Shown in pieces: positions 1,748 through 61,894 of a DNA stretch of 64,000 nt. Each line of letters opens with the position of its first letter. Within the stretch, counting starts at the first letter, position 1. This DNA is from Auriscalpium vulgare (lineage: Eukaryota; Basidiomycota; Agaricomycetes; Russulales; Auriscalpiaceae): NCBI GenBank assembly GCA_019915015.1, contig JAHBBC010000004.1:1302001-1366000 (forward strand), read 5' to 3'. The position numbers were made by a program, and so were the translations under genes. The notes under the pieces were generated by a model, which was not told the origin of the DNA, made no database searches, and saw nothing but the letters and a program-made list of their open reading frames with translations.

Positions 1748-3298
1748 TCACGGCATCCAATGCTTACGAGGCAAGGAAAACTCACAAGACGCGCTCTCGT
1801 ACTTGCCTGTTGACCAACACGAATCGTCAGATCACCTCCAAAGATGTCAAGCCCGGAAGGCACTCACCGACGCCGACAATCACGTTGCCCGGATCCTGCG
1901 GCTTGTTCTCGAAGTAGTTCTGCAGGATTTGTTTCGTGCCCTCGGCGTAGCGCTGCTGCGCGTCGAGCGTCGTGCCCGAGTAATGCGGTGTCATGCCGTT
2001 GCCGCCGCCGAGCGGGTTGCGCATTGAGCGCCAGGGGTGGTCCGCCGGTGCGGGCTGCACATTCCACACGTCGCCCGCGTAGCCGCGCAGCTGCCCGGAC
2101 TTGACGGCAGCAGCAACGTCGTCGGCGTTACAGATCGCACCACGGGCGGTGTTGACGAGCCATGCTCCCTGGGGCCGGGGTCAGCGGATGCGCGTGAGCG
2201 GGCGGAGCAGATTATACGTACTGGCTTGAAGTGCTGCAGCAGGTCCTTATTGATGAGGCCCTTGGTGCCCTCGTGGAGGGGGGCATTGACGGTGACAACG
2301 TCGCACTGCGACACAAATTCCTGCAATTCCACGAGTTTAGCATCCGCGATGAAAAAAACACCTCTCCATCACTGACCTTGAGATCCTCAACCCTCCGTGC
2401 ACCGACGGCCTTCTCCGCCTCCTCCGGCAGCCCCTTGTAGTCGAAGTACAGCAGCTCCTTCGTGTTGAACGGCACGAGGCGCTGCAGGACGCGGTAGCCG
2501 ATGCGCCCCGCGCCGAGCGTGCCGACGACCTTGCCCTCGAGGTCGAATGCGTTGCGCGCGATGTCGGACACCTGCCAATTGCCGCTCACGGCCTGCTCGT
2601 GCGCCGGCACGAAGTTGCGGACGAGGAGCAGGATGGACATCATCACTTGCTCCGCGACGGAGACGACGTTCGAACCCGAGACCTCGAGGACTTGGATCTT
2701 GCGATCCACGGCGGCGTTAAGATCGACGTGGTCGGAGCCAACGCCGGCGGTGACGCAGACCTTCAAGTTCTTGGCCTAATGTGGGTAGAATTTGTCAGGG
2801 ATGCGGGGAAAGAGAGTGCATTGATAGAATGAATACCTTAGCCATAAGTTCCTTGGTAAGGTATCCAGGATGGAAAGGCGTCGTGATGAGGATGTCAGTC
2901 TGTGAGCACATGCCGGTCAGTCTACAGCCTGCGACGTGAGGTGAAATAGATGACGCACATCGGCAATGTGCTTTTGGAAATCGCTGTCCGGGCCCTCCTT
3001 GGAGCTTGTCACCTAATCGAGAATGGATCAGTCTAAGAAGCGATCTCGAGTTGCAGTTCGACGTACAATGTATTCGTGGCCCTGGGACTCGAGGTAGGCG
3101 CGAAGACCGAGCTAACAACGGAGTCAAAATGGTGTACAAAGCATCATGGCGATGATGCATACCTCATTCTCGACGGTGCCGAGGAGACGAGGCTCAGCCT
3201 TGGCTGCCTTGAAGCCGTTGTAGAGGATAGCAAGGACCTAAAACTGCACAGTCAAGACATGAATTTTTGGTATTGAAGGCAAGCCGACTTGCCTTCAT
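1748..3298 (-). CDS. fdh1: NAD-dependent formate dehydrogenase
   Basis: Oxidises formate to CO2 with reduction of NAD+, probably in the cytosol, as part of oxalate/formate and C1 detoxification in wood- and litter-decay fungi. About 360 residues over several exons. The N-terminus reads [20 protein letters not shown], followed by [12 protein letters not shown]. The Rossmann motif is [17 protein letters not shown], then [21 protein letters not shown], and [17 protein letters not shown], which carries the catalytic-region His of the family. The start at 3298 gives only Met-Lys before an intron whose donor is AAG|GCAAGT, so the first intron (about 3237-3292) is a GC-AG intron. The remaining introns are GT-AG. 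The last exon (G-K-Y-E-S-A-S...), ending at 1748, is inferred from a good donor and acceptor; its tail is not a family motif, so the exact stop is less sure. No truncation is seen. Confidence 0.9.
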
Positions 3299-4340
3299 GT
3301 TGAGGATGGAGTATTAAGCGAAAATAGGTAAAGGTGTTGTTTCGGAGGAGTGTTATGCGAATGCAGAGAGAGGAAATGCGAGAGTGATGATAGAACGAAG
3401 CCGAGAACATCGCCATTTTATACTTCACCAGGTAGGACTACCTCGGAAGCCAGACCAGGATATTCCGTTGCTCCGCCGTCCAGTGACATCACAGGCGCTG
3501 TGTCGGATACGTGTTGAACGTTGAGCAGCCGCCTCCCAACATTCCCGACGGGCCAATGCGGGACGCGAGTTGATTGATCGAATCGGAAGAGGAGGACGGA
3601 GAGCTTGCCGCCCGTCGGCACGGCACGTGGGCGCTCCGTTGAACTCCGGCCCCATGCCGCGATGCCGCAGTGTCCTCCGTCGCGAGTCATTTTTCGGCCA
3701 TCGCAAACTGACGAGCCACGCGTAGGCTGCGCAGGGAGTGTCCGCTGTCTTCACGTCGATATAAGATGACTCTCATTTCTTGGCGACGTAGCTCGCGGAC
3801 GATGTCATCGCGACACGCGGGCCTTTTGTGGGTAGGCGACGCCGCGGTCGCAGCGAGCAGTATCGGGTGAGGGCGCTGCGTGAAGAAGAAGAGGTGGCCT
3901 GCAAGATTATCCGTAAGAACAGGAAGGAATGAGCCGGCGAATACTGACAGTACTTACCTATGACGTCTAAACTGCATGTCGTATCCTGGGCGTTCGTCTA
4001 GTCAAGGGGGCATACCGTACTTTTCGGCCTGAACTATGTCAGCGAGCCTCCGCGCGAGAAGAGTTGGTGGCCTACGTGTTGATGTAAGGCATGTGAAGCT
4101 CCTTCTTCTTGCTGTATGTCCGTCAGACTCGCGTAATCATGTGAGATTGCCGATGAACATACTTACACGAAGACTCAGAGCTCCTGACTCCACGACGGCG
4201 TGAACTGCGGTGAGTCCGCAAGATTGAGCCCCAAGAAGGCCGCCTCCGACTCCTCGCCCGTGTCCTGCTTGAGCTTGGACGCCGGATATGGACGCTTGCG
4301 CGCTGCGCGCCCGACGGGCCGCATCGGCCCTTCCCGTATG
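3299..4340. other. Formate dehydrogenase upstream region and unassigned exon-like sequence
   Basis: The first few hundred bases should hold the formate dehydrogenase promoter. Between about 3830 and 4340 the minus strand has plausible donor/acceptor pairs around short coding-like pieces (one contains KKKELHMPYIN), which could be a small gene or a remnant. I do not recognise it. Confidence 0.25.
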
Positions 4341-4973
4341 GTTCCCGGAGTCTACGGCAACTAGATAGCGCAGTTCAGCCAAGAAACTCGACGGTAACAG
4401 ATCAGCATCAATGACGTCCGGATGTCGCGTGAGTTCGGTGGATTTTGGACGCATGTACCATGTGGCCAAGAAGGCACGAAGCCGTCGCGGCCTTGTGCAT
4501 ATCGGACGCTGTGCGTGCACCGCACGAAGAGGTGAGAATCGAAGCGGGGAGATTCAAAATGGCGACTCACAATACAGATACCTGATCTCGAAGCAGAGTG
4601 AGCTATCCAGTGACGATTTGAATACGGCTTCGGTCGTTTCCGTTGCGACCAACCAAGCTTGGCTCTTGGCACAAGGCATGTAATTCGTAGTAAGCCCGGA
4701 GGTTTGATCGCTCAGAGCGCACAAACTATGACACGACTGTGTCCCCGGCGTCCGCTTCGTCGTCTTTCAATACACCTAAAGTCGAATGGAGCCCATCTTG
4801 GTCGCCGCGGCGCACGCCCTTCAGACAACGAGTGGCGTCGACATGGCCATTGGCCATGATCGGGTTTTCGAAGCGTTTCAAACTCGGCGCGTCTAAGGGA
4901 CCTTCTAGGTTCTTTGCGCCCGCTGTTAATTGAACACAAGATGGAAGATCTGTCGTTTTAGATTTGTTCGGAT

Positions 4974-5015
4974 GGGCTCGTTATCTATAGCTGATGGCTA
5001 GTAGATAACGATCCC
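4974..5015. repeat. Conserved hairpin upstream of peptide gene A
   Basis: An inverted repeat with arms around CGTTATCTA and TAGATAACG and a loop near CTGATGGC. The same hairpin, with a longer perfect stem, lies at 9963-10004 at the same place relative to peptide gene B. Confidence 0.6.
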
Positions 5016-5681
5016 TTCACCATTCCCAGTGCGCGAACCGAAGCAGAATTGTTCACGGAAAATCAAATTGACAGAGGAAGCCTACCACTTCAGGGCAACC
5101 CCGGACGGCGCGCGCGATAGTGCGTTCGAGGAAGGGCTGCTCTAAACGGAATACGACAACATAGAAGGATCACATCAGTTGATAGAGACCTTCTGCCTTC
5201 AAGAGTTGCGATCATGTGTGAGCATCTTCCGGCGTACCCACGATGTTGTGTTTGTTGTTCAAGCGCTATATGAGGGTGTGCGTGAGAGCAACTTATTATC
5301 AAACTATCACCACATGCTCTGATCCTAGCTAACAATCCTTCATGTGGTCCTGTCCGGTATAAACAATGGTGAGATATGGTAGTGCGAAAAGCAAGGCCAT
5401 GCACCTTTTGCGCCTGTGATGGGGCCCCATCTGACAGCAAATCTGCGAGTCGTCCAGGGCTGGATAATACAGAGTACTGTAGATGGCCAGAAACTCGTGA
5501 TCGTCAGCCATGGTTCCAACAGAACATTAGTACCATGAGAAAGCCCCTGATGGTGTTTCAGGTAGCCAACGACCTGGTCACGTCGATAAGATCGCACCGC
5601 GTTGGTCGCGCAACGGTGCGCCGCTGTGGCTGGAGGGCTGACCTAGAGTTTATGTTTAGACTTGACGATCAACAACTGAAA

Positions 5682-5689
5682 GATAAAAG
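5682..5689 (+). promoter_or_regulatory. Weakened TATA box of peptide gene A
   Basis: GATAAAAG stands where genes B and E have TATAAAAG, about 70-80 bases before the start codon. The first T of the consensus is changed to G, which fits the idea that copy A is decaying. Confidence 0.5.
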
Positions 5690-5755
5690 GCCCACGTACT
5701 CTGTGGAAGTAATCCATCTTCTCCTCGAAGACCAAGACCAAGAGCACCTCGAGAA

Positions 5756-6048
5756 ATGCGCGGACCAACGTTCTTCACTGCTCTCGCCGCGATTCTCCTC
5801 TTGTACTCTTCGCTGAAAGTCACTGTGCAGGGTGTTGCTGCCTGTCGCTGGCCAAGGTTAGTCTGGCTCGCACTGCAAATGAATGATGATACTCACCCTC
5901 TCGTACGTCCAGTTGAGGCCTATGTTAATCGGGAAATTAACGGACGGTACGGTGCATGTTGGTTGAAACGCTGTAGTAGCGTACGTCTTAAGTCGGAGCA
6001 CGTCGTCCGCTGTTTCTTACCGATGTTGTCCAGAGCGAAGGACCGTGA
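5756..6048 (+). pseudogene. Secreted peptide precursor, copy A (frame broken)
   Basis: Exon 1 (5756-5856) encodes a signal peptide starting MRGPTFFTALAAILLLYSS, nearly identical to copy B. Compared with B, exon 1 has 4 extra bases just before the donor (GGTGTTGCTGCC against GGTCTGCC), so the usual donor at 5857 is phase 2 instead of phase 1 and exon 2 would stop at once. Read in the ancestral phase, exon 2 (from 5913) gives VEAYVNREINGRYGACWLKR, keeping the family core CWLKR. A weak donor at about 5832 (GTGTTG) would restore the phase, so a working gene cannot be excluded. A third short exon (6034-6048) ends the frame. Best read as a recent pseudogene of the family. Confidence 0.65.
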
Positions 6049-6284
6049 CGGTGGATGTTCGTCAGCACGACATCGAAGCCGAAGCAATCATGCCACGGAG
6101 AGTCGTCGCAGCGGACGGAGAGGAGTAATGCTGATTCGCAGTAGGTATTGCCGGCAATGGCATCATTACGGCCCCCAAACGGGTGTATTTCAGGGGATTT
6201 GCACGGCATCATGAGCATGGACTCACCCACATAGTGGACGCCCCACATGGGACTGGTATTTTGAGAATCGCGCACGGATCTTAC

Positions 6285-7531
6285 GACGCGCTTGGAGGTA
6301 GATGCGGCCGATGGCGGACTGCAGCTCGTGTGTAGGGTCGGGCTGCGCGAGCATGGGCTCTAGCAGGCTTGTAGCGGCGGTGAGGTCCTACAGAGGCTGA
6401 GTGGGCGCGGCCCGCGCGAGGAGAGGATGAGAGGAGGCGTACCTTCGTCTTGATGAATTGCGAGGCCGCATCAGCGCGACTCGGGCGCCGCGCTCCGTCC
6501 ACACCTCCCTGTCGCCGTGCCGCGCTTTGACGGCACTTGCGCAGCAGCACGCCGAGCGCGTCCGTATATCAGCGCGGGTCGCCGGACCAGTACCGCACGC
6601 TCGCCTGCAGCACCTCCAGGTCAAACGGCAGCAGCGTGTCAAACACGTACGCGCGCGCGGTGGGCGGCTCGATGGCGAGAGCACGGTGAAGAGGTTGGTC
6701 GTCTCTGCTGTGGTCTGGTTGAACAGGCGCATGCGCGAAAGGCACGAAAGGCGGAGAAACCAGAGCTGAATATGTGGGTGAGCAGGGGGACAGAGGGCAG
6801 GGAGAAGGTTCAGGACGACCGGGAGGTCTTCGGGGTCGGCTGCGACGATGCGGTCGCGCGCCATGCGCGCCAGGGCACGCCAGCTGTTGGTCATCTGCGT
6901 AGCATGAGAATCGCGGTGAACAGGAGGGGCAAAAACAAACGCACAACGAGCGTCTGCAAGTCCGAGCGCGTCCACTCTCCGGTGAGGTCGCGCTTGGGGC
7001 GCTTCTCTGGGTTCGCGACGAATTTCGTGAGGAGCGTCGTCAGGGGATCTGTCTGTGGCCGGCAGTCAGTGGCGTTGCAATCGAAAAGTGTTTGCGACGC
7101 ACGTTGGGTATATATGGGAAGGAACATCGTCGGCTGCACGAGCTGCGGCAGATACACCGCAGGCGCGTCCGGTTCAGAGTCTGTATCCGACGACGGCGCT
7201 GGCGGAAAGGCAGGCACAGGCTTATTGAAATTCACTGAAGGAAGTTGAACGGGTGGTCGATAGGGCGCCGCTGCTGCTGAGAGGGAGATGTCGACGGCGG
7301 CAGCGACGGACACCTGGGATGTCGACGGGCGGACTGCGAAGCGCGGCGTGGGTGGTTCTGGGGAGAGCGGGTCGTCTGGGTCGTCGACAAGGAATGGATT
7401 CGGCCCTTCTGGCTCGTCGATGGGAGGACTTGGGAGGACTGGGCAAAGCTCACTGGCGGCCGATGCAGGCGGCGGTGGCGAGACGTGTTCGCGCGAAACG
7501 ATATCAGGAGCTCGTTATTGTTCTCTGACAT
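6285..7531 (-). pseudogene. TRAPPC12-like protein, C-terminus cut off
   Basis: Resembles the TRAPP complex subunit 12 family (tethering of vesicles at the Golgi, C-terminal tetratricopeptide repeats). The minus strand reads from a start at 7531 (MSENNNELLISF) through a Pro/Ser-rich stretch. It continues with DPLTTLLTKFVANPEKRPKR, WRALARMARDRIVAADPEDL, LWFLRLSCLSRMRLFNQTTA, AYVFDTLLPFDLEVLQASVR, YWSGDPR, LLRKCRQSARHGDREVW, and finally ELQSAIGRIYLQARRK. At about 6289 the TPR-like sequence stops and duplicated block A begins, so the end of the gene is missing and replaced by about 17 unrelated codons. Family assignment is from memory of the LPF-E/D-LEVL-x-YW-GD pattern. The truncation is directly visible. 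Confidence 0.55.
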
Positions 7532-7539
7532 GACTGTGA

Positions 7540-8660
7540 GCAAGAGAAGGAGGAGGCCCGAGGCGGACAAGGCAGCGTTGTCGTCGTGCTGCGCAGCGAG
7601 CTCAACGTTCAACGGTGGCGGGTCGAGGCCCGGCGGGGCGGCGGGGCGGGTGGCGCGCGGTTGCCTTTAATTGGCGGGAAATACCGGATTTGGGTATCGC
7701 GACTCCGAGATCTACGCGCATCGCGCCCTTGCCATCCCGCCTCCACCTCCACGCCTTGTCTCGTCCTGTAGCTCTGCCCTGTCCATGACCCAAGCCTCAG
7801 AGCACACCGATGCGCCGTCCCCGTCCTCGTCAGCATCGTCAAATCCTCCTACTCGTTCTCCGCCGACTATGCTCTTCATTTTCGCTCGGCACTTTGCCTC
7901 GTCATGGCGTCCGTGTTGTCCTTTCTCGGCTTCTCTCCACGACAACGCGATGATTTCGGCACTACTCTTCTCCACGTTCTGGACAAGTTCATCTATCCTC
8001 GATTTTGTGCGCCTTCCCCCCCTACATTGCCAGCCAACTGTGTGATGGCCTTCCTGGCGGCGCTTTATTGGCAAAAGGCTCTTCGATGACATCGTTTCAT
8101 GGGAGACTGACCGCTCAGTTCCAGCCTACGTGCGATGCGCTTGAGCATAGGGATGTGGTGCTTGGAGGGCTGGTGGTTTTTGGCGTGGCGAGAGGGATTG
8201 AGAAGCAAGCGGAGGGTAAACGGGCACCGCGCACGACATCTTGCGCTCTTATCTTATGTCCAATCTTTGCGTCTTGCCCGGACCAAATCATAGCTTGTGT
8301 ATCGGTGCATTGCATTGGGCGCCTCGCCACCCGTCTCGCCACCCGCGAACACTAATACACCAGCCTTTCTCCTGGGCCCGAAGGCGACGATAACGGCACA
8401 AAAAGCCAGAACCGCACGCATCAAGCAGCACAGCACGTCGATGGCCTGTCGATCCGCGGGAACTGCGGTGCTCAATGCAAGCGCGCAAGACTTGACGGTA
8501 GCAAGTGATTGTCTATTCACAAACGGAGGAGATGACAAGCAGTATGCGCACGGCAGAAGGTCGACCACGCATGCCCATCCGCCGCAGATATATACGATAT
8601 TAATTCTATCCTGCGCGACAGTGATTAGCAGTGCTTTCTGACTGACGGACAGCAAAAACC
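7540..8660. other. No confident gene
   Basis: A short plus-strand frame at 7904-8089 (start MASVLSFLGFSPRQRDDFG) and overlapping frames on the minus strand (7712-8092) lack family motifs. The region just upstream of 7531 should hold the TRAPPC12-like promoter. Confidence 0.3.
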
Positions 8661-8663
8661 GAC

Positions 8664-9060
8664 CTAATGTGAAGGTCTTTCGACACAGACTTCGAGTCCG
8701 GGAACCGCGGCCTGGATGTCGGCGACCCATCCGTTGGCGGCGGTACTGTCACTTTTGAAGATGAGCTGGCGAAGCGGGATCTCGTGCGATGCGCGCGATG
8801 TTAGCCAGTCCTTGAGACACGCCAAATATCGGGGTGGGTCCGCCGAAGACCGCCCGACCAGTAGCTCGATGGTGTCCAATTCGCGGAGGTAGTTCCAGTG
8901 GGGTTCATATGTGCAATTGATAAGGTCAACAAGGGCTGCATCTGCAATGACCGCATGCGCCAGGGCGGAAGATCTAGAAACGACCTCTGCCCATGCACTC
9001 CACGGAGCGCCAATGCACAATTGCTTCAGCCGATGGGTGGCAAAGAGGCTGTAACATGCG
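8664..9060 (-). pseudogene. F-box/LRR-type protein, C-terminal fragment
   Basis: The minus strand encodes about 120 residues with the alternating pattern of the C-terminal part of basidiomycete F-box/leucine-rich proteins (HRLKQLCIGAPWSAWAEVV, ELDTIELLVG, PLRQLIFKSD, VPGLEVCVERPSH-stop). No F-box exon is visible upstream, where duplicated block B begins at about 9340, so this is probably a remnant. The assignment rests on general pattern only. Confidence 0.35.
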
Positions 9061-9962
9061 GCTGTCAGATATTCTGACCGTCATTGACGCTTCCCGGGAG
9101 AGGAGTTGCGTTCACGGACACCATCATGCCACATATGACGAAGAACATCGCGGTGGTGGTGGAGAAGCGCATTGTGATGCTGAAAATGGCGGGTGCAACA
9201 ACGTTTGATCCACGTCGAACAAGCGCCTTTATAGAGCGTGCCAGTTATGGGTACGGGCGACAGTTGCAGGAGCAGACCGAGGTTTGGTGACAGGCCCCGC
9301 AGGTCGCGGCCAGGGCTGAGTCGGACGAGGCGCGTCTTCGAGAGTACCACGCAGTTCAGCCAAGGAACTCGACGCTGCCAGAGCGGCGATGCCGGCGTCC
9401 GAATGTCGCTTGAGTTCGGTGGAGCTTGAACGCATGTAGCGTGCGGCCAAGAAGCCACGAAGTCGTCGCGGCCCTGTGATGGACGCTGGGCGTGCACCGC
9501 ACGAAGAGGTGAGAATCGAAGACGGGGATACTCCAAAGGGCCACCGACAATAACCAAGGCTCTTTCTCTAAGAGAAGTGATCAAGCTATTCACAGCGCAA
9601 AGTGATTGACGATTTGACTATACGGCTTCGGTGGTTCTGCTGAGACCACCCAACCTTGGATCTTGCGACGAGGGCCCGTAAACCGAAAACGATGTTGAAT
9701 CGCACAGAGCGCACAAACTGACAGGACTGTGTCCGCGGCACCATCCTTGAGTATACCTGAAGAGGCGGCGCGCGCGCCCTTCAGGCAGCAGTTGGGCGTC
9801 GACATGACCATGACCGGGGTCCTAAATCTTCGAAGCGTGTCAAAATCAACGCCAGGTAAGTGTCTAAGTGACATCCTGAGTTCTTTGCGCAGCGTTGCAC
9901 ATGGAGAGTTCGGAGAGAGCCGGTACTCGATAGAAGATCTGTGTTGTTAGATTTGATCAATT

Positions 9963-10004
9963 GGGATCGTTATCTATACCTGATGGCTAGTAGATAACGA
10001 TCCC
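9963..10004. repeat. Conserved hairpin upstream of peptide gene B
   Basis: Perfect 14-base arms GGGATCGTTATCTA and TAGATAACGATCCC enclose a 14-base loop. The same structure, slightly eroded, is at 4974-5015. It may be a regulatory palindrome or an old mobile-element end carried with the duplication. Confidence 0.65.
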
Positions 10005-10885
10005 TTCATCCTCAGTCGCCCAATCTGCGTCAGAATTATTGACAGAAAACCAACTATAGACAGAGAAAGCTTACCGATTGTGGGCGGCCCCGGACGACGC
10101 GCGCGAAAGTGAGTCCGAGGACCTATTTCTCTACGACCCGCATAACTTCGAAAACAGGAGGATCACATCAGTTGATGATGGTAGATAGACCTTCATGGCC
10201 CTTGCCTTCGAGAGTTACGATCATGTCAAGCACCGGTTTCTGGTTCTCGCGCCTTGCTTCAGCATGGCATTCTTCTCGGCGTACCGCGGAGCGCGGAAAT
10301 GCTAAGTGTGCAGTGTGAGCATCCTCCGGCGTACCCACGATGTTGACTTGAGAGTGTTCTTCGAGCGCTATATGAGGTGTGCGTGAGACTGATTTAACCA
10401 TCGAGCACAGCAGATCATCACCACATGTCGGATGGTCCTGTCCGGGTAAGCATCGGTGAGATAGGTAGTGCGAAAAGTGTGCTTGCGTACCTCTTGTGCC
10501 TATGATGGGGCCCCACGTCTCTGACGCGACTCGTCCAGGGCTGTCAAATCCGGGATCGTACGGAAAGTGGGCTGTAGATGGCCAGGAACCGTGATCACAG
10601 CCATGGTCGAACAGAACCCAAGTACCATGAGAAAGCCCCTGATCACGTCTCAAGTGAGACACAACTGGCGGTGAAGAAACAGAGCACATCCACGTGCTGT
10701 CTGGATGCCACCCTCCGGCGGCATGTAAAGCGCTGCAAGTGTATATCAGCACTCACGCTAGCCAACGACCTGGTCACGGTAACAAGATCAGGCCGCGTTG
10801 GTCGCGCAACGGTGCGCTCGCTGTCGCTGAAGGGCTAACCTCTAGTGAAGACTAAGTTTAGACATGACGATGGACAACTGGAAGG

Positions 10886-10893
10886 TATAAAAG
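10886..10893 (+). promoter_or_regulatory. TATA box of peptide gene B
   Basis: TATAAAAG lies 80 bases before the start codon of peptide gene B, and the same box is in front of gene E. Spacing and match suggest a strong, inducible core promoter. Confidence 0.65.
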
Positions 10894-10965
10894 GCTCACG
10901 TACTCTGTGGCAGCCATCCATCTTCTCCTCGAAGACCAAGACCAAGACCAAGAGCATCTCGAGAA

Positions 10966-11219
10966 ATGCGTGGACCAACTTTCTTCACTACTCTCGCCGC
11001 GATTCTTTTCCTGTTCTCTTCGCAGACAGTCACTGTGCAAGGTCTGCCTGTCGCTGGCCAAGGTCCGTCTAACTCGCACCGCAAATTAATGATGATACTC
11101 ACCTTCTCGTATCTCCAGTCGAGGGTTATGCTGCTCGGCGCGGCGTCGCCCCCCATCCGGCGTGTTGGTTGAAACGCCAAGATGATTGCGGCGATCCAGA
11201 CGGCCAAGACGAAACGTAG
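10966..11219 (+). CDS. Secreted Kex2-type peptide precursor, copy B
   Basis: Two exons (10966-11062 and 11119-11219, GT-AG intron of 56 bases, phase 1) give a 65-residue protein. Residues 1-26 are a classical signal peptide (MRGPTFFTTLAAILFLFSSQ, then TVTVQG). The second exon carries two dibasic sites: AARR, then the peptide GVAPHPACWL, then KR and an acidic tail QDDCGDPDGQDET. Kex2-like cleavage would release a 10-residue peptide ending Cys-Trp-Leu. The family shows a conserved leader and a variable core. This is the best preserved single-core member. It matches no named peptide I know; it could be a RiPP precursor, a signalling peptide or a small effector. Gene structure is well supported by four related copies. 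Confidence 0.75.
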
Positions 11220-11639
11220 ATGTAAGTCTCGACTTGCAGCAGATGTCCTGTTTCAGAACCCTTACCGATGTTATACAGCTCGAAGCACAGTGTGTTTGTG
11301 ACGGTGGAATTCCGTCAGCAAGCCGAGGCAATTATTCGAGCGTATCGTCGTGCACACCAATGTACATCTGTTTGGTACTGGACGTTCTCCGCATGTCAAG
11401 AAATTCTGGAGAGTTTTCGCAGCGGACGGAGAGAAGTAATGTTGATTCGCGGCGCATCTGTATCACTGAGAGCCCCAAACGGTGAATTCCAAGGGGTTTG
11501 CAGCATCATGAGCATGAACTCACACAGATAGTGGACGCCACGCCGAGACCGGTATTTTGGAGACCGGTATTTTAGGAATTAAGCACGAATCCTACAACGC
11601 TCGGTACTTTGAGTGGAATATTATCACCAAGATGCCTCT

Positions 11640-12240
11640 GGCGGGACGTGGAAGACGCAACGAGCGCCCGCGATCAAGAGAATATCTGTAGATGGGCGCG
11701 CATGACCTCGGCGATATCCGTTATTGACAGAACGCCGGCTCAAACATCGTCCGCGACAAGATAGTCTTCGATCGTGATGTCAGTGGGATACTCACACCGT
11801 TCGATATAAAGAACACGAACCAAGAGTTCACAGCATCTACGGCACGGGCAACCGCCATCAGCGCGCTGTAATACGCCGCAGACTCACGACGCCACGAGCG
11901 ACGCATGACATTGAGCGACATACGAGGTTACCCGCGCGCCTTTCCTCAAGAAGAATGTCAAAGCTGCATTGAAGATAATGTTAGTCCATGGATTCTCTCT
12001 TACCTCAGTAAGGAACATAGAGCAGCCTTTGTGGCGTCCTCGCCGAGTCCGCGAAAATGCCGGCACGGCGTTAGTCTGTAGGCTGAGAAACAAGCTAATC
12101 TTGGCTCGTGCGAGCGAATACGGAAGAACAAGACCCATTCGGACAGAACACAGTTCTCCACGGAGATCACAGCCCAGTTTATAGTTCGGGGCCTCCGGCC
12201 ATGCGGCATTCTCATGAGAACGACTTCATAGCTCATATCG
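11640..12240. repeat. Duplicated sequence downstream of peptide genes, possibly decayed membrane-protein exons
   Basis: Similar sequence occurs at about 16390-16560 and 17450-17890. On the minus strand the copies share pieces such as AVDAVNSWFVFFISNGVSIP (11721-11921) and AVDAVNTWSVFFI (17456-17698), plus an upstream piece near 12000-12200. The hydrophobic pattern is reminiscent of basidiomycete seven-helix proteins, but frames are broken and no full gene can be built. Confidence 0.4.
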
Positions 12241-12407
12241 ACCCTTAGTTATGAGACGCACGATGTACCATGAGAGGGCGCGCTCGGGCTTGACGGTCAT
12301 TGTGAAACGGTGATGCATGGGCTTTCCTAAAGGAACAGACGCTGCGAGAAAGTGCAGAAGCAACCGGCTCCTACGGAAATATCAATGACCGCTGTGCTGA
12401 GCAGAGT

Positions 12408-12417
12408 CAATAAAAGG
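12408..12417 (+). promoter_or_regulatory. TATA-like box of peptide gene C
   Basis: CAATAAAAGG lies about 50 bases before the chosen start of gene C and matches the TATAAAAGG core of the other family members. Confidence 0.45.
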
Positions 12418-12462
12418 CGTACCCTCTTTCAATCCATGCCCATCACCAGAGAGACACACGCG

Positions 12463-12722
12463 ATGTACGCCCTCAACTTCATCACTGTGTCGGCCATGGC
12501 GCTCCTCATCGTCGTTCAGACGGCCACTGCCATACCGGGTGAGTAGTTCGTTGCCGAGGAATCGTCCGCGAGGTACTCACCATCTTCATCCATACAGTGA
12601 AAAATAATGTTGCGGTTGAGAGCACCGACACGCACGGTCCAGCGGTCTGGCTGAAGCGTTCAGTGGAGGAGCACGCTGCGGCCGAGAACCCCGACGCGCA
12701 CGGCCCAGCCTTCTGGCTTTAA
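12463..12722 (+). CDS. Secreted two-repeat Kex2-processed peptide precursor, copy C
   Basis: Exons 12463-12538 and 12598-12722 with a 59-base phase-1 intron give 66 residues. Residues 1-25 form a signal peptide (MYALNFITVSAMALLIVVQT, then ATAIPG). The core exon holds two imperfect repeats: ESTDTHGPAVWL followed by KR, and ENPDAHGPAFWL directly followed by the stop codon. This is the layout of a Kex2-processed repeat protein: a repeated core, a KR spacer and no carboxyl extension after the last core. An ATG further upstream in the same frame would add 37 residues before the signal peptide, so the internal ATG was chosen. The signal sequence differs from A, B and E, but intron position, phase, TATA box and the W-L-KR core are the same, so it is an older paralogue. 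Confidence 0.75.
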
Positions 12723-13069
12723 CACTTTGAGCAACTCGCCCGTGAGTCAGAATGGTTTTGGTGGCTCCCGCCGACATTGCTGACGACCATTCTTTCAGTC
12801 GGAAAAAGGCGATGGAGTTGGAGAAGTCTTGGGCTGTCGAAGGTAATGACATCGCTACTGAAAAATGACCTTCGTGTATTAAAGAGTTGGGGGGAAATGT
12901 TAGAGCTTGAGACCAGCTTACTTCAATTCCGACGTGCTATAGATTTCGACACGAAGTGCACTGTTTCTTCCACAGGGTATGTTCGGCAAGAGCACTCATA
13001 GAGTCGAGGACGATGTGCTTACGAGTCACCGGCACCTGTCCCTATCTTCCTTGCCATCAAGGTAACGCA

Positions 13070-13475
13070 TAGACCCACCTCTTCCTACCACGCGCTGCTA
13101 TGACACACCCGGACCCAGCCAAACAGCGAAGAAAGCATGTCATAACGGAAGAAATCAATTGGGTGGAATGTGGGGCGGTGGCGGTATATGGGCTCTATGA
13201 ATGAAGGGGTATCGCCAACGCATTTGATGCCGCGTGGAAGGAGAAAAAGACGTATCTGACCGGGCATGAGCACTGTGACTGAATAAACGCATGGCAACGC
13301 ACCTTGGGCGTAAGCCCCTTGAATTGTGCAGTCGCGCCCTCCTCCCTCAAAAGATTCCTCACTACCATCACGCCTGAAATCTTGCGCTCAAAGTTCGCAT
13401 TCTGGATGCACGTCTTCGTCGCGTCGAGCGGAGCGGCAATGGTGATGGACGCGACGAACGCTCCGAGTCGGTACT
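13070..13475 (-). pseudogene. Fragment of the GGC1 carrier gene with its downstream flank
   Basis: This piece copies about 17930-18460: the 3' flank and the C-terminal exon of the GTP/GDP carrier (the region of TRIQN..FERKISG, LLREEGA and FKGLTPK). The copy starts inside the gene and has no upstream exons, and it carries changes such as the loss of the terminal VGPKLVFSYTIAQSLIPYF exon. It shows that the duplicated unit extended into the neighbouring carrier gene. Confidence 0.7.
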
Positions 13476-13479
13476 TCTA

Positions 13480-14137
13480 GTCAGAAGTACACGGGCTCTC
13501 TTCACATTCCCCTTGGCACCAGCTGGGACTGCTTCGGGTCGAATAGCAAGTGCACCTGAGAATGTCCTTTAAAATCCATATCCTGTGCGCCCAGCAGCGT
13601 AAGTATATATCGCCAATTGATGTTGGACAGATGTTGGTAAGTCCTGAAGTAGATATCGCACCATTCCGCGACCCGCACTGCCCTGTCTCTCATCGGACTC
13701 TCTGGCGCGGACGTCACTAAGCCCACCCCGTGCAATAGTGAAGGAAAAATCGAGATGTTCGTGGTCGCGGAGTCAGTGCGCATGTGGACAGCCGGGCCCG
13801 GGACGGGCCGTATGTGGTCTCTTTGATTTGTCATCTCAGGCCCGGTCGAGATCTCACATGTTTCCTCCGAATCGCCCATTAATGCCTTCCCAATCGCTGT
13901 GTTCATTTTCCGTCATCGTCATCCCCTCAGGCGGCCTTGTCTCTGTGCAGGCCCTCTTTCCTTCGGCAGCGTCCCCGACAGAACATCTCGCTATAAGAAT
14001 ATGATACCAATCACAGCCCAAACGCTCTCGATTACCCGCTCACAGTACTTACATCCGTAAATACCAAGAGGAGGGCAATAGGCATAGTCCAAAGCAGTGC
14101 CGCATTTCCACGGAAGCAAGCAAGAACGCGGCGCGGA
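13480..14137. other. No recognisable gene
   Basis: One minus-strand frame of 134 codons (13502-13906) has no family motif. The rest holds no convincing exon. The 3' flank of the seven-helix gene lies at the right end. Confidence 0.3.
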
Positions 14138-15344
14138 CTAGATGTTGCTCGCGCTGTCGCCGGACGTCGAGGACTTGTTGAGGTCCTCAACGGAGTGGTC
14201 TGTCTTGCGCGTCGTTTCGATACACACCATGATGCCTTCGTCCTTCGTGCTCCTGTTAGAGTTGACCGTCATCGTGTCCGTCATCTGGTTCTGCTTCCAC
14301 GCGCGGCCCTCGACGATGCGTAGCACGAGCATCTGCGGGGACACGGCCTGCAATACGAACACGCCCCCATCAGCCGCCGCCACAAAATTCCTCATGAATC
14401 CCGAATCAGCGACGCACCGTGAACATCGTGTAGATCGACATGAAGAGTATCGAGATCTCGCTTTCGAGCCCGAACGAGACGAGGAACGCGATGCCGGCTA
14501 TCGAGTACGGCAGCGCGGACTCGACGATGAGCGCGCCGACACCGAAGTACGTGCGCGAGACGTCCGCGCCGAGGTAGCGCTTCGCGGTACGCGTGTACCA
14601 CAGCAGCCTCCCGCAGATGATGGACGTCATGACGACGTTGAGCCCGATCGAGAGGGAGGAGTATACGACCCCCACGTGCGCGGCGAAGCCGGCAAAAAAG
14701 TCGCTGTGCGGCGCGCCGGACGCCCACAGCTCGACGACACTCATAGCTGGATATGCGCGTTTGAGGATTCTCGGTATATGGGATGAAGCAGGGCGACGTA
14801 CCGAGGGTCGCGAGGTTAAGGATGCCGGGGAAGATGAGCACGCGGAAGTCGCTCCAGACGATGTAGCAGCGGTAAATCTATCAAATCGCACTAGTAAACA
14901 CGTTTGGTTGGCAGGCAGAAAGGATAAACACGAACGAGAAGGCCGTCGCTGAGCAGACTGAGCGCGATCGAGGCGGTGGTGCCCATTGTCTGGTACCAGA
15001 CGGCTGCGAACGTCACGAGATATGCGCCTTGGCCCCCGGGGAAGTCGCGGTTCACGATCCACATCTCCTCGCCAAACACGCTCTGTACGGCGACGTATAT
15101 CGTGATGAGGAATAGGGTCGCCGTGCTGTAGACCATGAAGAATTTGTCCCCGGTGGACTTGCGCTTCGTCCACACCAGCCGCTGCATCGTCATGGCATAG
15201 AGGACCAGCTGCACGCCTGCGCAAAGGGGTGAGTGCAATGGCTTGCAACGAATATGACTCTCGTTGCTCACCATAGAGAATGCAGTTGACGTTGTTGCCG
15301 ATGTAGTACGAGTTCTGGAAGAGAGGGTCAGAGTTGTTAGACAT
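14138..15344 (-). CDS. Seven-helix fungal membrane protein (DUF6534-type)
   Basis: Starts MSNNSDPLFQNSYYIGNNVN and continues after a GT-AG intron into VQLVLYAMTMQRLVWTKR. Hydrophobic helices follow: MVYSTATLFLITIYVAVQSV, ASIALSLLSDGLL, IYRCYIVWSDFRVLIFPGIL, VVYSSLSIGLNVVMTSIICG, ALIVESALPYSIAGIAFLVS and SILFMSIYTMFT. A cytosolic tail contains MLVLRIVEGRAWKQNQMTDT and a Ser/Thr-rich end. The pattern RLLWYTRTAKRYLG ... VGALIVESALPYS ... PQMLVLRIVEGRAW is that of the very large basidiomycete family of uncharacterised seven-helix proteins. At least four short introns. No ligand or partner is known; a sensor or receptor role is only a guess. Intact as far as can be read. Confidence 0.75.
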
Positions 15345-15840
15345 GGCGAAGGAATGGGGCGATAGGGTGGGGCGATGATGGGATGGGCGGCTGATGCTAA
15401 CGCGGCGCAAGTGGACGAAGACAGGCTGGCTACTGGAGCGATGGACAGATGAGCGATGCTTCGCCGGGTCGTCGCAAGCCATGATACATATTCGTGACAT
15501 GACGTCTGGAGCACGGGACGGAGGATCGCGGCGGCTGAAAGCTTCTGTCCCCGTAGGACATGAGGACTGCCTGCTATAGGCACAATACGACAAGGCGTGG
15601 TGTTACAAGTTCAGTCTGCCAACTAGTGCTGGGAAGAAATCACCTCTCAGTCCACACCAAAAAGCTCAATTGTGGGATGCGTACGTACGATGCAACTCCT
15701 GCAGTGTGCGGCTTGTCGTCAGGTAGACGATTTTCGTTGAAATGAACTCTTCTGAGACGATTTGACATGGGAGTACAAGACACTGCTGTGAGAAACTTCA
15801 GCTAATGCCCAAGAGTAGTACAAGAGGAGGCTTATCAGAG
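15345..15840. other. Promoter region of the seven-helix gene; no other gene
   Basis: Divergent upstream sequence between the minus-strand seven-helix gene and the peptide remnant D. No motif stands out. Confidence 0.3.
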
Positions 15841-15891
15841 CTGTCGCCGCACTGCAAGTGAATGATGATCCTCACATTCTCAAATCTCCAG

Positions 15892-15977
15892 TCGAGGCCG
15901 ATGCTCTTTGCATCGATAGACCGGCGTTATGGTACAAACGCGACTGCGTTCCACCAGACCAGCCTGGAGGTGACTAA
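15892..15977 (+). pseudogene. Peptide precursor remnant D (core exon only)
   Basis: The intron end and core exon of the family are kept: after the acceptor the phase-1 frame reads VEADALCIDRPALWYKR and an acidic tail DCVPPDQPGGD, then stop. The signal-peptide exon is absent: sequence matching the start of the family intron joins unrelated DNA at about 15840. Without leader or promoter it should not be secreted. It still shows the family pattern of Trp plus an aromatic residue before KR. Confidence 0.7.
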
Positions 15978-16901
15978 TAAATGTAAGTCTCGAGTTGAAG
16001 CATGTCGTGTTTCAGAACCCTTACCGATATTATACAGCTCGAAACACGGTCTGCTTGTGACGGTGGAATTTCGTCAGCAGCCATTACAACCGAGGCAGTC
16101 ATTCGAACGTATCGTCGTGACCAATGTATATCTGGGTCTGGCACTGGACGTGTTACCGCACGTAAATAAATCCTGGCGAGTTGTCGCAGCGGACGGTGAG
16201 ATTAATATTGATTCGCTGCGCATCGGCACCACTGCGATCCCCAAACGGGCGAAGTCCGTGGAGTTTACACGGCATCATGAACATGAACTCCCTCAGATAG
16301 TTGCCCACACACCTTGGACTGGGATTTCAAAAATTGCGCACGGATATCATGACACTCGGTACTTTTGGTGCAAAATTGTTAACAAGATGCCTCTGGCGGC
16401 TCGTGGAAGACGAGCGCCCGCGATGGAGATATCATAGCGAACTAAGTCCCCCGACATCTACGGCATGGACAACCGCCATTAGCGCGCTGTTCGATGGCAT
16501 CACCACGCACCTCAATTTCGCGCTTCACGAGCGACGCATCATCATAGGCCACATACGAGGCCATCACCACACGTCAGACGCTAGTGAGAAATGGTTGTTA
16601 CGATAGGGTCCCACGTCTCGGACAGAAAAGTCTTGCCCAGGGCTATCGTATCCGGGGTCAGAGTGCCGCAGACGGCCAGGAACCGCGATGACAGCGATGG
16701 ACCAACAGAACATCTATGTCACCGCTCCGGCCGCCGGCCGCCTGTGCGCCGCAACTGTAATTAGTAGACTTAAGCTAGCCAACGACCTGGTTACGTCGAT
16801 CAAGATCACGTCGCGCTCGCCGAGGAGCAGTGCGCTGTCGCTAAAGGGGGTTAACCTGAATCGAGGACTAGACTGAGAATAGAGAATGGACAACTGAAAG
16901 G

Positions 16902-16909
16902 TATAAAAG
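16902..16909 (+). promoter_or_regulatory. TATA box of peptide gene E
   Basis: TATAAAAG, 71 bases before the start codon, in a context (GAAAGGTATAAAAGGCTCACG) almost identical to gene B. Confidence 0.6.
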
Positions 16910-16972
16910 GCTCACGTCTGTGGAAGCAACCCATCTTCACCTCGAAGGCCAAGACCAAGATCACATCGAATA

Positions 16973-17266
16973 ATGCGTGTCTTCACTACTCTAGCCGCAA
17001 TTCTTCTCCTGTTCTCCTCGCAGACAGTTACCGTACAAGGTCTGCCTGTCGCTGGCCAAGGTCCGTCTAGCTCGCACTGCAAATTGGATGATGATACTTA
17101 CCTTCTCGAAACCCAGTCCGGGACTATGCTAAGCGCGATGATGACTGTTGGTTTAGACGCGACTCGTTGAAGACGACGATGAATAAGTGTAAGTCTCGAG
17201 TTGAAGCACGTCGTGTCCGAAAATTCTTACCGATGTTATCCAGCTCGAAGTACGTTGTGCTCATGA
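16973..17266 (+). CDS. Secreted Kex2-type peptide precursor, copy E
   Basis: Exon 1 (16973-17060) encodes the signal peptide MRVFTTLAAILLLFSSQTVT followed by VQGLPVAGQ, lacking three residues relative to copy B. A phase-1 intron (17061-17116) leads to the core exon: VRDYAKR, then DDDCWF, then RR and a basic tail DSLKTTMNK. A donor GTAAGT at 17189 and acceptor at 17243 add a last exon ending SRSTLCS-stop at 17266, giving 60 residues. Kex2-like cleavage would release the hexapeptide DDDCWF. If the last intron is kept the tail would be longer, so the carboxyl end is less sure than the core. Probably functional: promoter, leader, splice sites and core are all intact. Confidence 0.65.
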
Positions 17267-18170: not shown

Positions 18171-19449
18171 TCAGACGTATTTGGCAAAATAGGGAATGAG
18201 CGACTGCGCGATGGTATAGCTGAAGACGAGCTTCGGGCCGACGACCAGGATCTGAAGCGGGCATGAGCACTGTGACTGAATCAACGCATAGCAACGCACC
18301 TTAGGCGTAAGCCCCTTGAATAGTGCAGTCGCGCCCTCCTCCCTCAAAAGATCCTTCACTACCGTCATGCCTGAGATCTTGCGCTCAAAGTTCGCGTTTT
18401 GGATGCGCGTCTTTATCGTGTCGAGCGGAGCGGCAACGGTGATGGACGCGACTGCGCCCGCGACGCTTGCGACAAAGTTCTGCGCGAAGGTCGCTTTTGA
18501 GTAATCCGAGACACCAAGGACGTAGTCTTTTGTCACGGCGGAGGCGCCGAAGAGCTAGTGAGGGATAGTCGTGAGTACAGTAGCACGACCGCGAGCGTGG
18601 GTGATAAATGAAGAAAAAGGAGGACGTACAGCGAAGCTACCTGGCGCGTTACGCGCCATGGTCCATCCCCAGCCACGGTACAACGTCGTGCCCTCCTCCT
18701 TGAAAATCCTGATGACGCCGCGCCCACGGAACGCCTCAGGGTTCACCTGCCGCTTGATTTTGAGCGCGTCGAGTGGTAGCAGCACCTAGCGCGGATTCCG
18801 CCATTGGCTGTCAGCACATTGCACATTTCACACCGTGCAGCAGACAGCTACTCACCACCTCGCCGATGCCAGTCAGACTAGTGCATATAGTCAGTTCATG
18901 GCCGTTTCTAGATGAACGGACACGCGTCGGACGCGCACACACCTGCCCGCTGTCGCCTGCATCATCATCTTGCCCTTGCGCTCGCCGAACGCGTTCGTGA
19001 AGCTCGTTTTGTAGTGACGCGTGAGGATGTCGTTGAACCACGGCTGCCCGCCGAACTTGTATATCCGCTGAGAGATTTTGTACCCGGCGGCATACCCAAG
19101 GCCAGGGAAAAGCGAGAGAAAACGCTTGACGATGGGTGCATTTGCTTTATCCCGGAAAATGATAGCGGACAAGCCTGACTCGGAGGCCTGGGTACGTGGA
19201 AATGCAGGTCGCGTGGGTCATTGCTGGCCAAGTCGACAGTCGTGATATACCACATACCTTGAGCTTGTTGCTCATCAGGCGCTTGGCAATTGTATCCACC
19301 GGGTGGAAGATGAGCAGCTCGGCGACACCTGAGATACCCGTTAGCCAGTATGGTGACATGTCAGTGAGTTGGGACGCACCAGATGTTCCCGAGCCCAGGA
19401 CACGCGCAGTCCCAGACTCCTTTCCTCGGCTGGACGTTGGGGGAGACAT
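18171..19449 (-). CDS. GGC1: Mitochondrial GTP/GDP carrier
   Basis: Inner-membrane carrier exchanging GTP and GDP, needed for mitochondrial nucleotide supply and iron balance in yeast. About 310 residues. It starts MSPPTSSRGKESGTARVLGS, then after an intron VAELLIFHPVDTIAKRLMSN (first carrier signature PxDTxxKR). It continues VKRFLSLFPGLGYAAGYKIS, IYKFGGQPWFNDI, GIGEVVLLPLDALKIKRQVN (second signature), YRGWGWTMARNAPGSFA, LFGASAVTKDYVLGVSDYSK, ITVAAPLDTIKTRIQNANFE (third signature), FKGLTPK, VVGPKLVFSYTIAQSLIPYF. The order and the YKFGGQP and RGWGWTMARNAPGSFA stretches are specific to Ggc1. Several GT-AG introns of 50-100 bases. Part of the C-terminal exon and 3' flank is duplicated at 13070-13475. 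Confidence 0.92.
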
Positions 19450-24423: not shown

Positions 24424-25690
24424 GATGGACAGATGGGTGGATTTCGACACACTACAGCGGTGCTTGCGCAGCGCTTTTGAAGACTGAACGTACCCCCATG
24501 GTCAACCTTATCACCGACACCGGCATATACAGAGTCTGCACGGCGCAACGGTTGGAACGGCAATTGGTTGACAGGGGAGAGCGCTCCGGTGGACCTTCAA
24601 GTTCCATGTTCGTGTGACCTAGGCTCGAGCGGTCGCAGGCTGGCGCCGCAGCGTGAGTATGGAGGTCGTGATTTGGGGAGAAGTCGTTTGATGAAGAGCG
24701 GCTGTGGCACGGATGGCAAGCGCTTGCTCAGCTTCGCCGGCGGGCAAGCTCGCGCTTGGGGAAGTCCACCCTAAATCCCCGCCGTAGTGCTCGGAGAGTC
24801 GCAGTCAATATCCTGACCTATCGCTGTATCATTGTCACGCATGTCAGACACAGCAGACAACGTCCCAATGACTCTCCCGACACAAAGCAGAATCTGAATC
24901 CGCCAAAGGACTCTTGATGTTGGGATGATGATGCCATACATTTCTGGTACGTGATACTAATACACCCACGCAGAAAGTATACATTAAGGCGGCCGTGCTC
25001 AGTGAAGGCGAAGACACGGGGAACCGGGCGGGCAGACGTGGGCAAGTGGGCCGGTGCGAGCTGCACGGATGGTGGCGCACGGCAGAGCGCGCTCCGACAC
25101 GCACTTGGAGTTGGTGAGCCAGATTTGCATGGAATATGCAAGCAGACAGCGGCTCGCCCGTGTAAACATTCGGCGCGGACGGAGGCATCTCTGCGGGCGC
25201 AGCGTCGGCGTACATGATTGTCACGCCCGAGCGCGCGCTGACGATGGCCAGATCATGCAGTGGTCGCGGGGCCCGGAAAAGCTACGCGCGCAGCCGTAAA
25301 TCCGACGCGCTTATGGTGTTGCAGGTGTGGACTTGAGCGGGATCCTCGTGATGGGGAAGAAATGGCGATGGCATAGGTGTGGTCTGCTCACCAATCTCGA
25401 GTCGAGGCCAGACTCGCTTGTTCTCCTGCCCCATTCTCCGAACTCTAGTCGCCCCAGATGCGCGAAGCGCCAGTGAGGGCTTGAAGGCTTGAGCTTGAGC
25501 TTGACTTATGAGACAGATCGACTATCATCGGTTAAAGAGCTTGAGGCTTGACGAGGGTTTGTGCGAATTTGCATGAGGAACTGATTCGGCATCGTGATCC
25601 GACGGATCTAATCTAATCTAATCTCACTGATCTGCAAATATTGAAAGATTCACGGTGCAAAGGATGGTCATACAGCGCGGCATTATGGGT
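24424..25690. other. Intergenic, no gene seen
   Basis: Holds the P450 promoter and the 3' flank of the first prenyltransferase. Frames at 24818-25299 on both strands show no family motif. Confidence 0.4.
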
Positions 25691-36867: not shown

Positions 36868-37564
36868 TTAGTAACCAGACTCGCTCATCGCACTACCGGG
36901 TTTGTAGAACTTCTTCTTCCAACCCAACCACCCGGACCAATTATCCTTCATCGTCTTATAAAACGCCGTCCAATCCATGCACCTATGATCGCCTCCAACA
37001 CGGTCGTACTGCGCCATCATGTCCACAGGCTCGAGCGTCGTGTCCGCCGCGCACAGGGTCGACTGGCGGAGGTAGCTCAGGCAGTGCGCGAGGTGGCCCG
37101 CGGCGTGGCCGACGGGCGCCTTGTCGTCCTGGAGCGCGTCGCGCAGCGCGTTGAGGCAGTGGATCTCGTGCGTGAGCGAGATGCTGAAGTAGCGGTGGTG
37201 CCCGCCGAGGTGCACGTTGTTGTCCCCGACGGTTGCCATGTAGAGCCACTCCTGCTCGGACTCCGGCGTGTGGATCCAGTAGCGCTGCGACTCCTCGAGC
37301 GACAGGTGCACGGCGGGCCGCGCGTCGTCCAGCAGGAGGCGCGGGGCGTAGTCCTCGCCCATCCAGCCTACCCTCAGAGGTGAGTACCGCACTGCACATG
37401 GGTATCGACCAGCGCTCACTATAGTGCTCGTAGGGCCGGCTGCGCGTCCCCGCGACCTTCTTCAGCCCACGCGCCAGGCGCATGTCGACGAGGACGTTCA
37501 CTGCGATGAGCACTATGAGTAGCGCGATGGCGACGCGGCGGGACAGCATGCTCGTTGCACCCAT
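36868..37564 (-). CDS. UstYa-like protein (DUF3328)
   Basis: Membrane-anchored oxidase-like protein of the family that cyclises and modifies the core peptides of fungal ribosomal peptides (ustiloxin, phomopsin, asperipin) and acts in cyclochlorotine synthesis. Two exons, about 210 residues. N-terminal anchor MLSRRVAIALLIVLIAVNVL; after the intron WMGEDYAPRLLLDD, VHLSLEESQRYWIHTPESE, WLYMATVGDNNVHLGGHHRY. It has the two family HxxHC motifs: HEIHCLNALR and HLAHCLSYLRQSTLC, the second followed by AADTTLEP. It ends with a Trp/Lys-rich tail and MSESGY. The best acceptor is the TAG before GCTGG, giving EHYS-WMGEDY at the junction. All signature residues are intact. The nearest candidate substrates in the window are the Kex2-type peptide precursors. 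Confidence 0.88.
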
Positions 37565-61890: not shown

Positions 61891-61894
61891 GTGC

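Follow-up and report, generated by a model that had tools for sequence, protein, structure and literature searches.

In conotoxin-like families a conserved leader and intron accompany a variable mature part beside a fixed Cys context, and the Qsp1 peptide of Cryptococcus has a Trp end. The a-type pheromones of basidiomycetes carry a C-terminal CaaX, and a tyrosinase-type gene occurs in the cluster for ustiloxin, although not in every dikaritin. For the KEX2-processed repeat proteins (KEPs) of Agaricomycetes, Trp-ended peptides and some cuts after a single Arg are described in the part of PMC9769878 drawn on here; within that part, six kep knockouts gave no visible phenotype and synthetic peptides had no antibacterial activity. 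Here we describe genes of Auriscalpium vulgare that look like an unnamed branch of this known kind of fungal peptide gene, built like KEPs.

The window analysed is a stretch of 64,000 nucleotides of one A. vulgare contig (C4), in which the first-pass annotation had placed five loci, A to E, as secreted Trp-core precursors that all share a TATA box, a signal-peptide exon, a phase-1 intron of 56-59 bases and a core exon. The positions of all five were right, and the pattern is real, with corrections that leave it partly confirmed. Three of the five (B, C and E) are intact, with a putative signal-peptide exon, a phase-1 intron within that range and a core in which Trp plus a hydrophobic residue precedes KR, RR or stop, as had been proposed (CWL-KR in B; VWL-KR and FWL-stop in C; CWF-RR in E), and their TATA-like elements lie 53-80 nt upstream of the ATG (Table 1). 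The first exon of A, B, C and E is hydrophobic (best 12-residue hydropathy mean 2.44-2.77, a measure of hydropathy only). The first-pass annotation had overlooked a second, probable intron, which lies at the end of the reading frame or just past it; with that intron removed, E would end LCS. Poor donor sites, such as GTCCGT, occur among the introns and count against the precursor reading given below.

Table 1. Coordinates of the peptide loci and the UstYa-family gene within the window.
Feature	Coordinates	Strand	Remark
B TATA-like element	10887..10895	+	about 80 nt upstream of ATG
B signal-peptide exon	10966..11062	+	predicted by hydropathy
B intron	11063..11118	+	56 nt, phase 1; junction same in P0002, P0003
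B core exon	11119..11219	+	stop 11217-11219
B core GVAPHPACWL	11142-11171	+	KR 11172-11177
C putative signal-peptide exon	12463..12538	+	annotated relative P0001
C intron	12539..12597	+	59 nt, phase 1; junction same in P0001
C core exon	12598..12722	+	two repeats: ...DTHGPAVWL-KR (KR 12654-12659), ...DAHGPAFWL-stop
E putative signal-peptide exon	16973..17060	+	
E intron	17061..17116	+	56 nt, phase 1
E core exon to second donor	17117..17188	+	VRDYAKR-DDDCWF-RR-DSLKTTMNK; core 17137-17154
A leader exon	5756..5831	+	if upstream donor used; to 5856 with the other copies' donor (frame broken)
A core exon to second donor	5913..5980	+	VEAYVNREINGR-YGACWL-KR-CSS; Trp codon 5960-5962
D core exon remnant	15892..15978	+	VEADALCIDR-PALWY-KR-DCVPPDQPGGD; leader exon missing
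UstYa-family ORF	36868..37461	-	HEIHC and AHC motifs; Pfam E 1.9e-15; about 19.6 kb from E

The claim of a full set of parts at every locus was wrong for D and is doubtful for A. Locus A has a leader and a TATA-like element at -73, and its exon 1 carries a 4-nt insertion, so that the 56-nt intron of the other copies would break the frame. Its core comes into frame if splicing starts from a more upstream donor, 5832, which gives a phase-1 intron of 81 nt, or if the intron is retained, and in the near-identical copy A' the frame is open across the retained intron. D retains the core exon together with the 3' portion of the intron, while exon 1 is gone and the 400 nt upstream of 15892 yielded no TATA-like element; it is best read as a leaderless pseudogene.

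A second, inverted cluster, absent from the first-pass annotation, lies on the same contig about 77 kb away (C4:1396-1410 kb) and holds four further intact genes, X, Y, B' and C', the last with three repeats. Open spliced frames were thus found at 7 of the 10 loci in this genome (B, C, E, X, Y, B' and C'), and W-[LF]-[KR]R or W-L-stop is present in every intact copy. The seven long DNA alignments between B and other copies (73-89% identity; E-values 5e-34 to 2e-167) indicate at the sequence level that the likeness among copies is due to common descent and not chance; the likeness of TATA elements and UTRs is no separate evidence, because it is part of the same descent. B-type and C-type profiles aligned better than any of 150 shuffles, which supports their assignment to one family. 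Three annotated A. vulgare relatives (P0001, P0002 and P0003) have the same architecture and share the exon junction (3/3); these close relatives are annotated in a second A. vulgare genome. Protein searches returned no further proteins and no relatives outside Auriscalpium, small genes often being unannotated, and Pfam gave only sub-cut-off matches to B, C and E. Literature searches with the core sequences returned no fungal match, judged by title, and none was found for KEX2 precursor peptides of Russulales; the main texts of two surveys (PMC6339444, PMC7329392) make no mention of Auriscalpium. The proposal that no named family fits held for the sequence in these searches and not for the type of product, Trp-ended KEX2 mushroom peptides being already described in the cited part of PMC9769878. 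Seven intact loci of ten, three same-junction relatives, the Trp-plus-one end of each intact copy and the Pfam result together argue for putative secreted Kex2-type precursors of an unnamed sequence family, as had been suggested.

We read the genes, with a rough probability of 0.68, as a family in tandem array encoding short, secreted pre-propeptides that Kex2 and Kex1 would process to ends of Trp plus one residue; transcription, splicing, cleavage, secretion and function are what we infer for it. The first exon would target the product for secretion, Kex2 would cut after the KR or RR downstream of W-[LFY], and Kex1-type trimming would remove the basic pair to leave W-L, W-F or W-Y. KR or RR follows W-[LF] in all seven intact genes, and a Kex2-type P domain is present in the genome. 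On the N-side, cleavage following a dibasic RR or KR, or a lone R, would give hexapeptides in most B-type copies, namely DNVCWL (Y), DDDCWF (E), ENVCWL (X) and YGACWL (A, if expressed), with DNVCWL and DDDCWF among the best candidates, and B and B' would yield a 10-mer and a 12-mer. A dibasic pair flanks the core on both sides in B, B', E, Y and P0002, in favour of such processing; X, A and P0003, where only a single Arg stands on the N-side, speak against it. C-type precursors would each release two or three peptides of greater length, with ends such as HGPAVWL and HGPAFWL; their repeats all end W-L and the last abuts the stop codon, as expected if a W-L C-terminus is the mature end. The peptides, probably linear and perhaps disulfide-paired through their single Cys, would act outside the cell, most likely toward other organisms or kin, since B-type cores differ among paralogs, whereas leader and CWL end stay conserved. 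An antagonistic role is without direct support, given the kep knockouts that lacked a visible phenotype and the synthetic peptides that lacked antibacterial activity in the cited part of PMC9769878.

That the precursors are of RiPP type, one of the two kinds for which the first-pass annotation called the pattern typical, was not borne out: the nearest UstYa match is about 20 kb off, and none of the six tyrosinase matches in the genome lies on C4. The corresponding reading, which we consider unlikely, is a dikaritin-type (ustiloxin-type) RiPP in which, after Kex2, the UstYa-family protein encoded 20 kb downstream would oxidise and cross-link the cores, with Trp or the adjacent Cys as perhaps the modified residue. 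The UstYa-family ORF, with its two motifs, does sit between both peptide clusters, and the likeness to dikaritins extends to Kex2-flanked cores with such a gene in the wider neighbourhood. With 14 exon-level UstYa matches spread over about 8 regions of the genome, a chance UstYa neighbour within the stretch would be expected in about 2% of cases, a rough reckoning made after the match was seen; for comparison, KEPs with DUF3328 among the 15 nearest genes make up 6.1% of Basidiomycota KEPs in the cited part of Umemura (PMC7329392). Against it, one mitochondrial carrier fragment and three UbiA fragments stand between the gene and E, so that at this distance the gene may be part of a terpenoid-type neighbourhood, no second UstYa gene adjoins it, the core is neither Tyr-centred nor constant in Tyr, and most precursors are single-core. 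This picture of the neighbourhood is incomplete, window Pfam covering 57 ORF pieces (56 among the 230 stop-to-stop ORFs of at least 100 aa, and one shorter). The UstYa gene is a possible partner modifying the cores. Very improbable is the further proposal of a new fungal RiPP class, a genus-restricted, fast-diversifying arsenal of hexapeptide variants, set between a conserved leader and a CWL anchor, in two inverted clusters with a UstYa-made Cys-Trp bond or other change.

Local divergence of the core was observed directly, as were the architecture, open frames and homologues on which the Kex2/Kex1 reading draws. Among B-type copies, mismatch is 60% in the residues preceding CWL, against 9% in the leader, 14% in the intron and 23% in the 3'UTR, and the CWLKR stretch (16%) is flanked by stretches of 60% (core) and 46% (tail). 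A conserved leader with a variable core, as first described, holds for B-type copies but not for the youngest B pair or the C-type: the core of B-B' shows 0/22 substitutions, and between C and C' the leader (dN 0.183) has diverged further than exon 2 (dN 0.078), so diversification of the core is not general. Positive selection by dN/dS was not borne out, no exon 2 giving dN/dS >1 and exon-2 dS being large in most pairs. These figures also bear on the decidedly doubtful idea that the products are uncut secreted small proteins or effectors whose WLKR end is a functional surface and no cleavage site. Most B-type genes are single-core, so repeats give no argument for cleavage there, and tails after KR persist as open frames; yet tail divergence nearly equals that of the core, and the repeats of C and C' are split by KR or RR, the last copy ending W-L-stop. 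We hold it very doubtful, too, that the copies are non-functional tandem duplicates whose open frames are relics of a repeated DNA unit. Much non-coding DNA was copied along with the genes, D lost its leader and A gained its insertion, but seven copies are intact, exon 1 has diverged less than any other part of the unit (8.8% versus 14-39% in intron, UTRs and flanks), the coding indels between B and B' measure 3, 6 and 3 nt, and the second genome has annotated relatives. Lipopeptide (a-type) mating pheromones are scarcely credible: precursors are short and tandem and P0003 ends CVDN, with Cys fourth from the end, but CVDN lacks the aliphatic middle residues of a usual CaaX, a C-x-x-x end occurs in 0/7 intact precursors, the leaders are hydrophobic and look secretory, and a mating-pheromone locus is disfavoured by the 40 STE3 matches, which fall on C1, C30, C76 and C79 and none on C4.

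Read as Kex2/Kex1-processed pre-propeptides, the genes resemble KEPs, as far as the cited parts describe these, in a putative signal sequence, short cores adjoined by KR or RR, ends at the Trp region and some predicted single-Arg cuts. They differ in ending with Trp plus Leu, Phe or Tyr, in the single, unrepeated core of the B-type, in a core that varies between gene copies, and in having no sequence match outside Auriscalpium; no XA/XP dipeptide run was found in the stretches after KR or RR. The KEP pipeline minimum of at least 3 Kex2-split repeats, given in the cited part of PMC6339444, exceeds the two of C and the one of B and E, three repeats occurring only in C', outside the window. Ascomycete alpha-type pheromone precursors likewise have a signal sequence, Kex2 sites and Trp-containing peptides, but here there is no STE13-type dipeptide run and no sequence likeness was found; basidiomycetes use a-type pheromones (PMC6339444, part cited). 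Qsp1, too, is a short peptide that a basidiomycete secretes and derives from a pro-peptide, but it is matured outside the cell by the protease Pqp1 (PMC7537855, part cited). The likeness to conotoxin-like families is one of working only, with no homology, the peptides here having one Cys in 6-12 residues.

If the products exist, this mushroom varies very short secreted peptides between gene copies and not through intragenic repeats. Repeat-based KEP surveys would miss most such genes, because these hold a single core. From the genes follows a short list of exact peptide masses to seek, and with them one could check whether the mature part is where mushroom peptide families evolve fastest.

We built gene models for the five window loci of putative secreted Trp-core peptide precursors (A to E) by reading the DNA directly and joining exons at GT-AG sites. 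Splicing at these sites predicts MRGPTFFTTLAAILFLFSSQTVTVQGLPVAGQ, junction, VEGYAARR-GVAPHPACWL-KR-QDDCGDPDGQDET for B; MYALNFITVSAMALLIVVQTATAIP, junction, VKNNVAVESTDTHGPAVWL-KR-SVEEHAAAENPDAHGPAFWL for C; and MRVFTTLAAILLLFSSQTVTVQGLPVAGQ, junction, VRDYAKR-DDDCWF-RR-DSLKTTMNK for E, the last continuing across a possible second junction. The predicted introns are all phase 1 (56, 59 and 56 nt, respectively), some with a weak donor sequence (GTCCGT), and TACTCAC (TACTTAC in E) ~20 nt upstream of the acceptor could be their branch site. Judged by splice sites alone, there may be a further GT-AG intron, which would begin directly past the stop in B, C and D but coincide with the frame's end in A and E. 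TATA-like elements lie at -73 (A), -80 (B), -53 (C) and -71 (E), and none was found in the 400 nt upstream of D. The first-pass annotation had assigned all five loci one architecture, including a TATA box and a phase-1 intron of 56–59 bases; architecture and intron stand for B, C and E, are doubtful for A and do not hold for D, while the TATA box fails only for D. Because of a 4-nt insertion close to the 3' end of exon 1, the other copies' donor disrupts the frame in A, and an alternative donor at 5832 brings it back; in D, exon 1 is gone. In A and its relative A', the insertion opens an unspliced frame of 175 aa (window 5756–6214) across the old intron past the core. The interval between C and D contains an open frame of 398 aa. 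On visual inspection it is hydrophobic and resembles a multi-pass membrane protein; Pfam gave nothing for it at E ≤ 1.

We searched 5.8 billion protein sequences for relatives. C retrieved P0001 (92% identity) and B had no match, while a six-sequence alignment as query retrieved P0001, P0002 and P0003 (3 hits among 1306 candidates, E up to 10), all from Auriscalpium vulgare (order Russulales). In the database gene models of all three, the annotated exon junction coincides with the predicted intron position. P0001 and P0002 have near locus numbers, with a longest contig of 30271 for both, which fits a cluster. P0003 carries the core LDSGCWL, and its best exon-2 match in the window's genome is only 61% identical; it ends in CVDN, and an equal core was not found in that genome.

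Protein- and DNA-level searches of the genome itself (51.6 Mb, 96 contigs), whose counts are lower bounds, placed relatives only on contig C4, where the window spans 1302001–1366000: some belong to the window cluster, the others to an inverted cluster at 1396–1410 kb. The latter holds X (core ENVCWL), Y (DNVCWL; P0002 differs from it at 3 of 55 residues), B' (core GVRVAPHPACWL), C' (three repeats, ending AIWL-RR, AVWL-KR and AVWL-stop) and A' (unspliced frame open). Seven of the ten loci are intact (B, C, E, X, Y, B' and C'), A and A' are uncertain and D is leaderless. Window 1089–7482 is 96% identical to second-cluster DNA, 9068–12718 is 85% and 12618–13556 is 88% identical. Window 1089–7482 and 9068–13556 form a portion of a large inverted duplication with its partner at C4:1394.5–1405.5 kb on the opposite strand, the interval compared; its outer end lies beyond this DNA.

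Profile comparison of B-type sequences (single core, mostly CWL-ended; 5 sequences) with C-type sequences (repeated cores; 3 sequences) scored 29.0 (probability 78.6%), and a repeat with two C-type sequences scored 27.3. Top scores in shuffle controls were 21.2 (C-type mature part; n = 150) and 16.1 (leader and mature part both). On these profiles, we take the two types as a single family.

We then aligned X, Y, B, B' and E and calculated mean pairwise mismatch per stretch: promoter 30.9%, 5'UTR 16.5%, exon 1 8.8%, intron 14.3%, VExYAAR 23.0%, core preceding CWL 60.0% (96/160; gaps 34%), CWLKR 16.0%, tail 45.9%, second intron 23.4%, 3'UTR 23.3% and 3' flank 39.2%. Among 464 sliding windows, the core window ranked 4th by mismatch, behind or level with three adjacent windows overlapping it; counting gaps moved it to 17th, and to 26th once A was added; the top mismatch outside exon 2 was 44% (median 15%). 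Core was tested against exon 1 plus intron in 6 of 15 pairs, with an excess for X-Y (10/22 vs 14/154; p 8e-5), A-X (10/22 vs 18/152; p 4e-4), A-Y (p 0.006), Y-B and X-B (p < 1e-9); B-B' had none (0/22 mismatches; the sole change is a 6-nt insertion). Between C and C', leader dN (0.183) exceeds exon 2 dN (0.078), and in older B-type pairs exon 2 synonymous change is high as well. Gene conversion of the flanks would yield an identical picture, and stronger constraint on intron, leader and CWLKR than on the core is a further possible reason. The older B-type paralogs thus show local core divergence, whatever its cause.

Pfam was run on 57 ORF pieces of the window.

Features of the window neighbourhood
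Feature	Position	Strand	Source
2-hydroxyacid dehydrogenase	1827–2775	-	Pfam
398-aa open frame	14406–15602	-	
Mitochondrial carrier	18171–18554	-	Pfam
UbiA prenyltransferase piece	25683–26625	-	Pfam
UbiA prenyltransferase piece	29473–29913	-	Pfam
UbiA prenyltransferase piece	33869–34426	-	Pfam
UstYa (motifs HEIHC and AHC)	36868–37461	-	Pfam
But2 domain	40034–40513	+	Pfam
NmrA	51240–51596	-	Pfam
Mitochondrial carrier	61894–62286	-	Pfam

The UbiA pieces run in series and adjoin the UstYa gene (a family linked to dikaritins); their row is perhaps a separate terpenoid-type neighbourhood. Genome-wide, UstYa gave 14 exon-level hits (4 on C4) and the Kex2-type P domain one (C4 at 1861 kb), while none of 6 tyrosinase or 40 STE3 hits fell on C4. 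STE3 hits on contigs C30 and C76 score identically, as if a dikaryon assembly had retained both mating-locus haplotypes.

We did not encounter this precursor family in the literature searched. PMC9769878 mentions Trp-ended cores for many basidiomycete KEX2-processed repeat proteins (KEPs), with such peptides detected in Coprinopsis, Lentinula and Pleurotus and products cleaved past a single Arg observed in Pichia. It also reports no visible phenotype in six kep knockouts and no antibacterial activity of synthetic peptides, and its authors propose a role toward the biotic environment. We judge that the window genes work like these KEPs, yet B, C and E fall below the repeat minimum of PMC6339444, and their predicted products terminate in Trp followed by a single further residue. 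We therefore class them as a variant of the KEP kind; they most likely encode secreted, Kex2/Kex1-processed peptide precursors of putative function.
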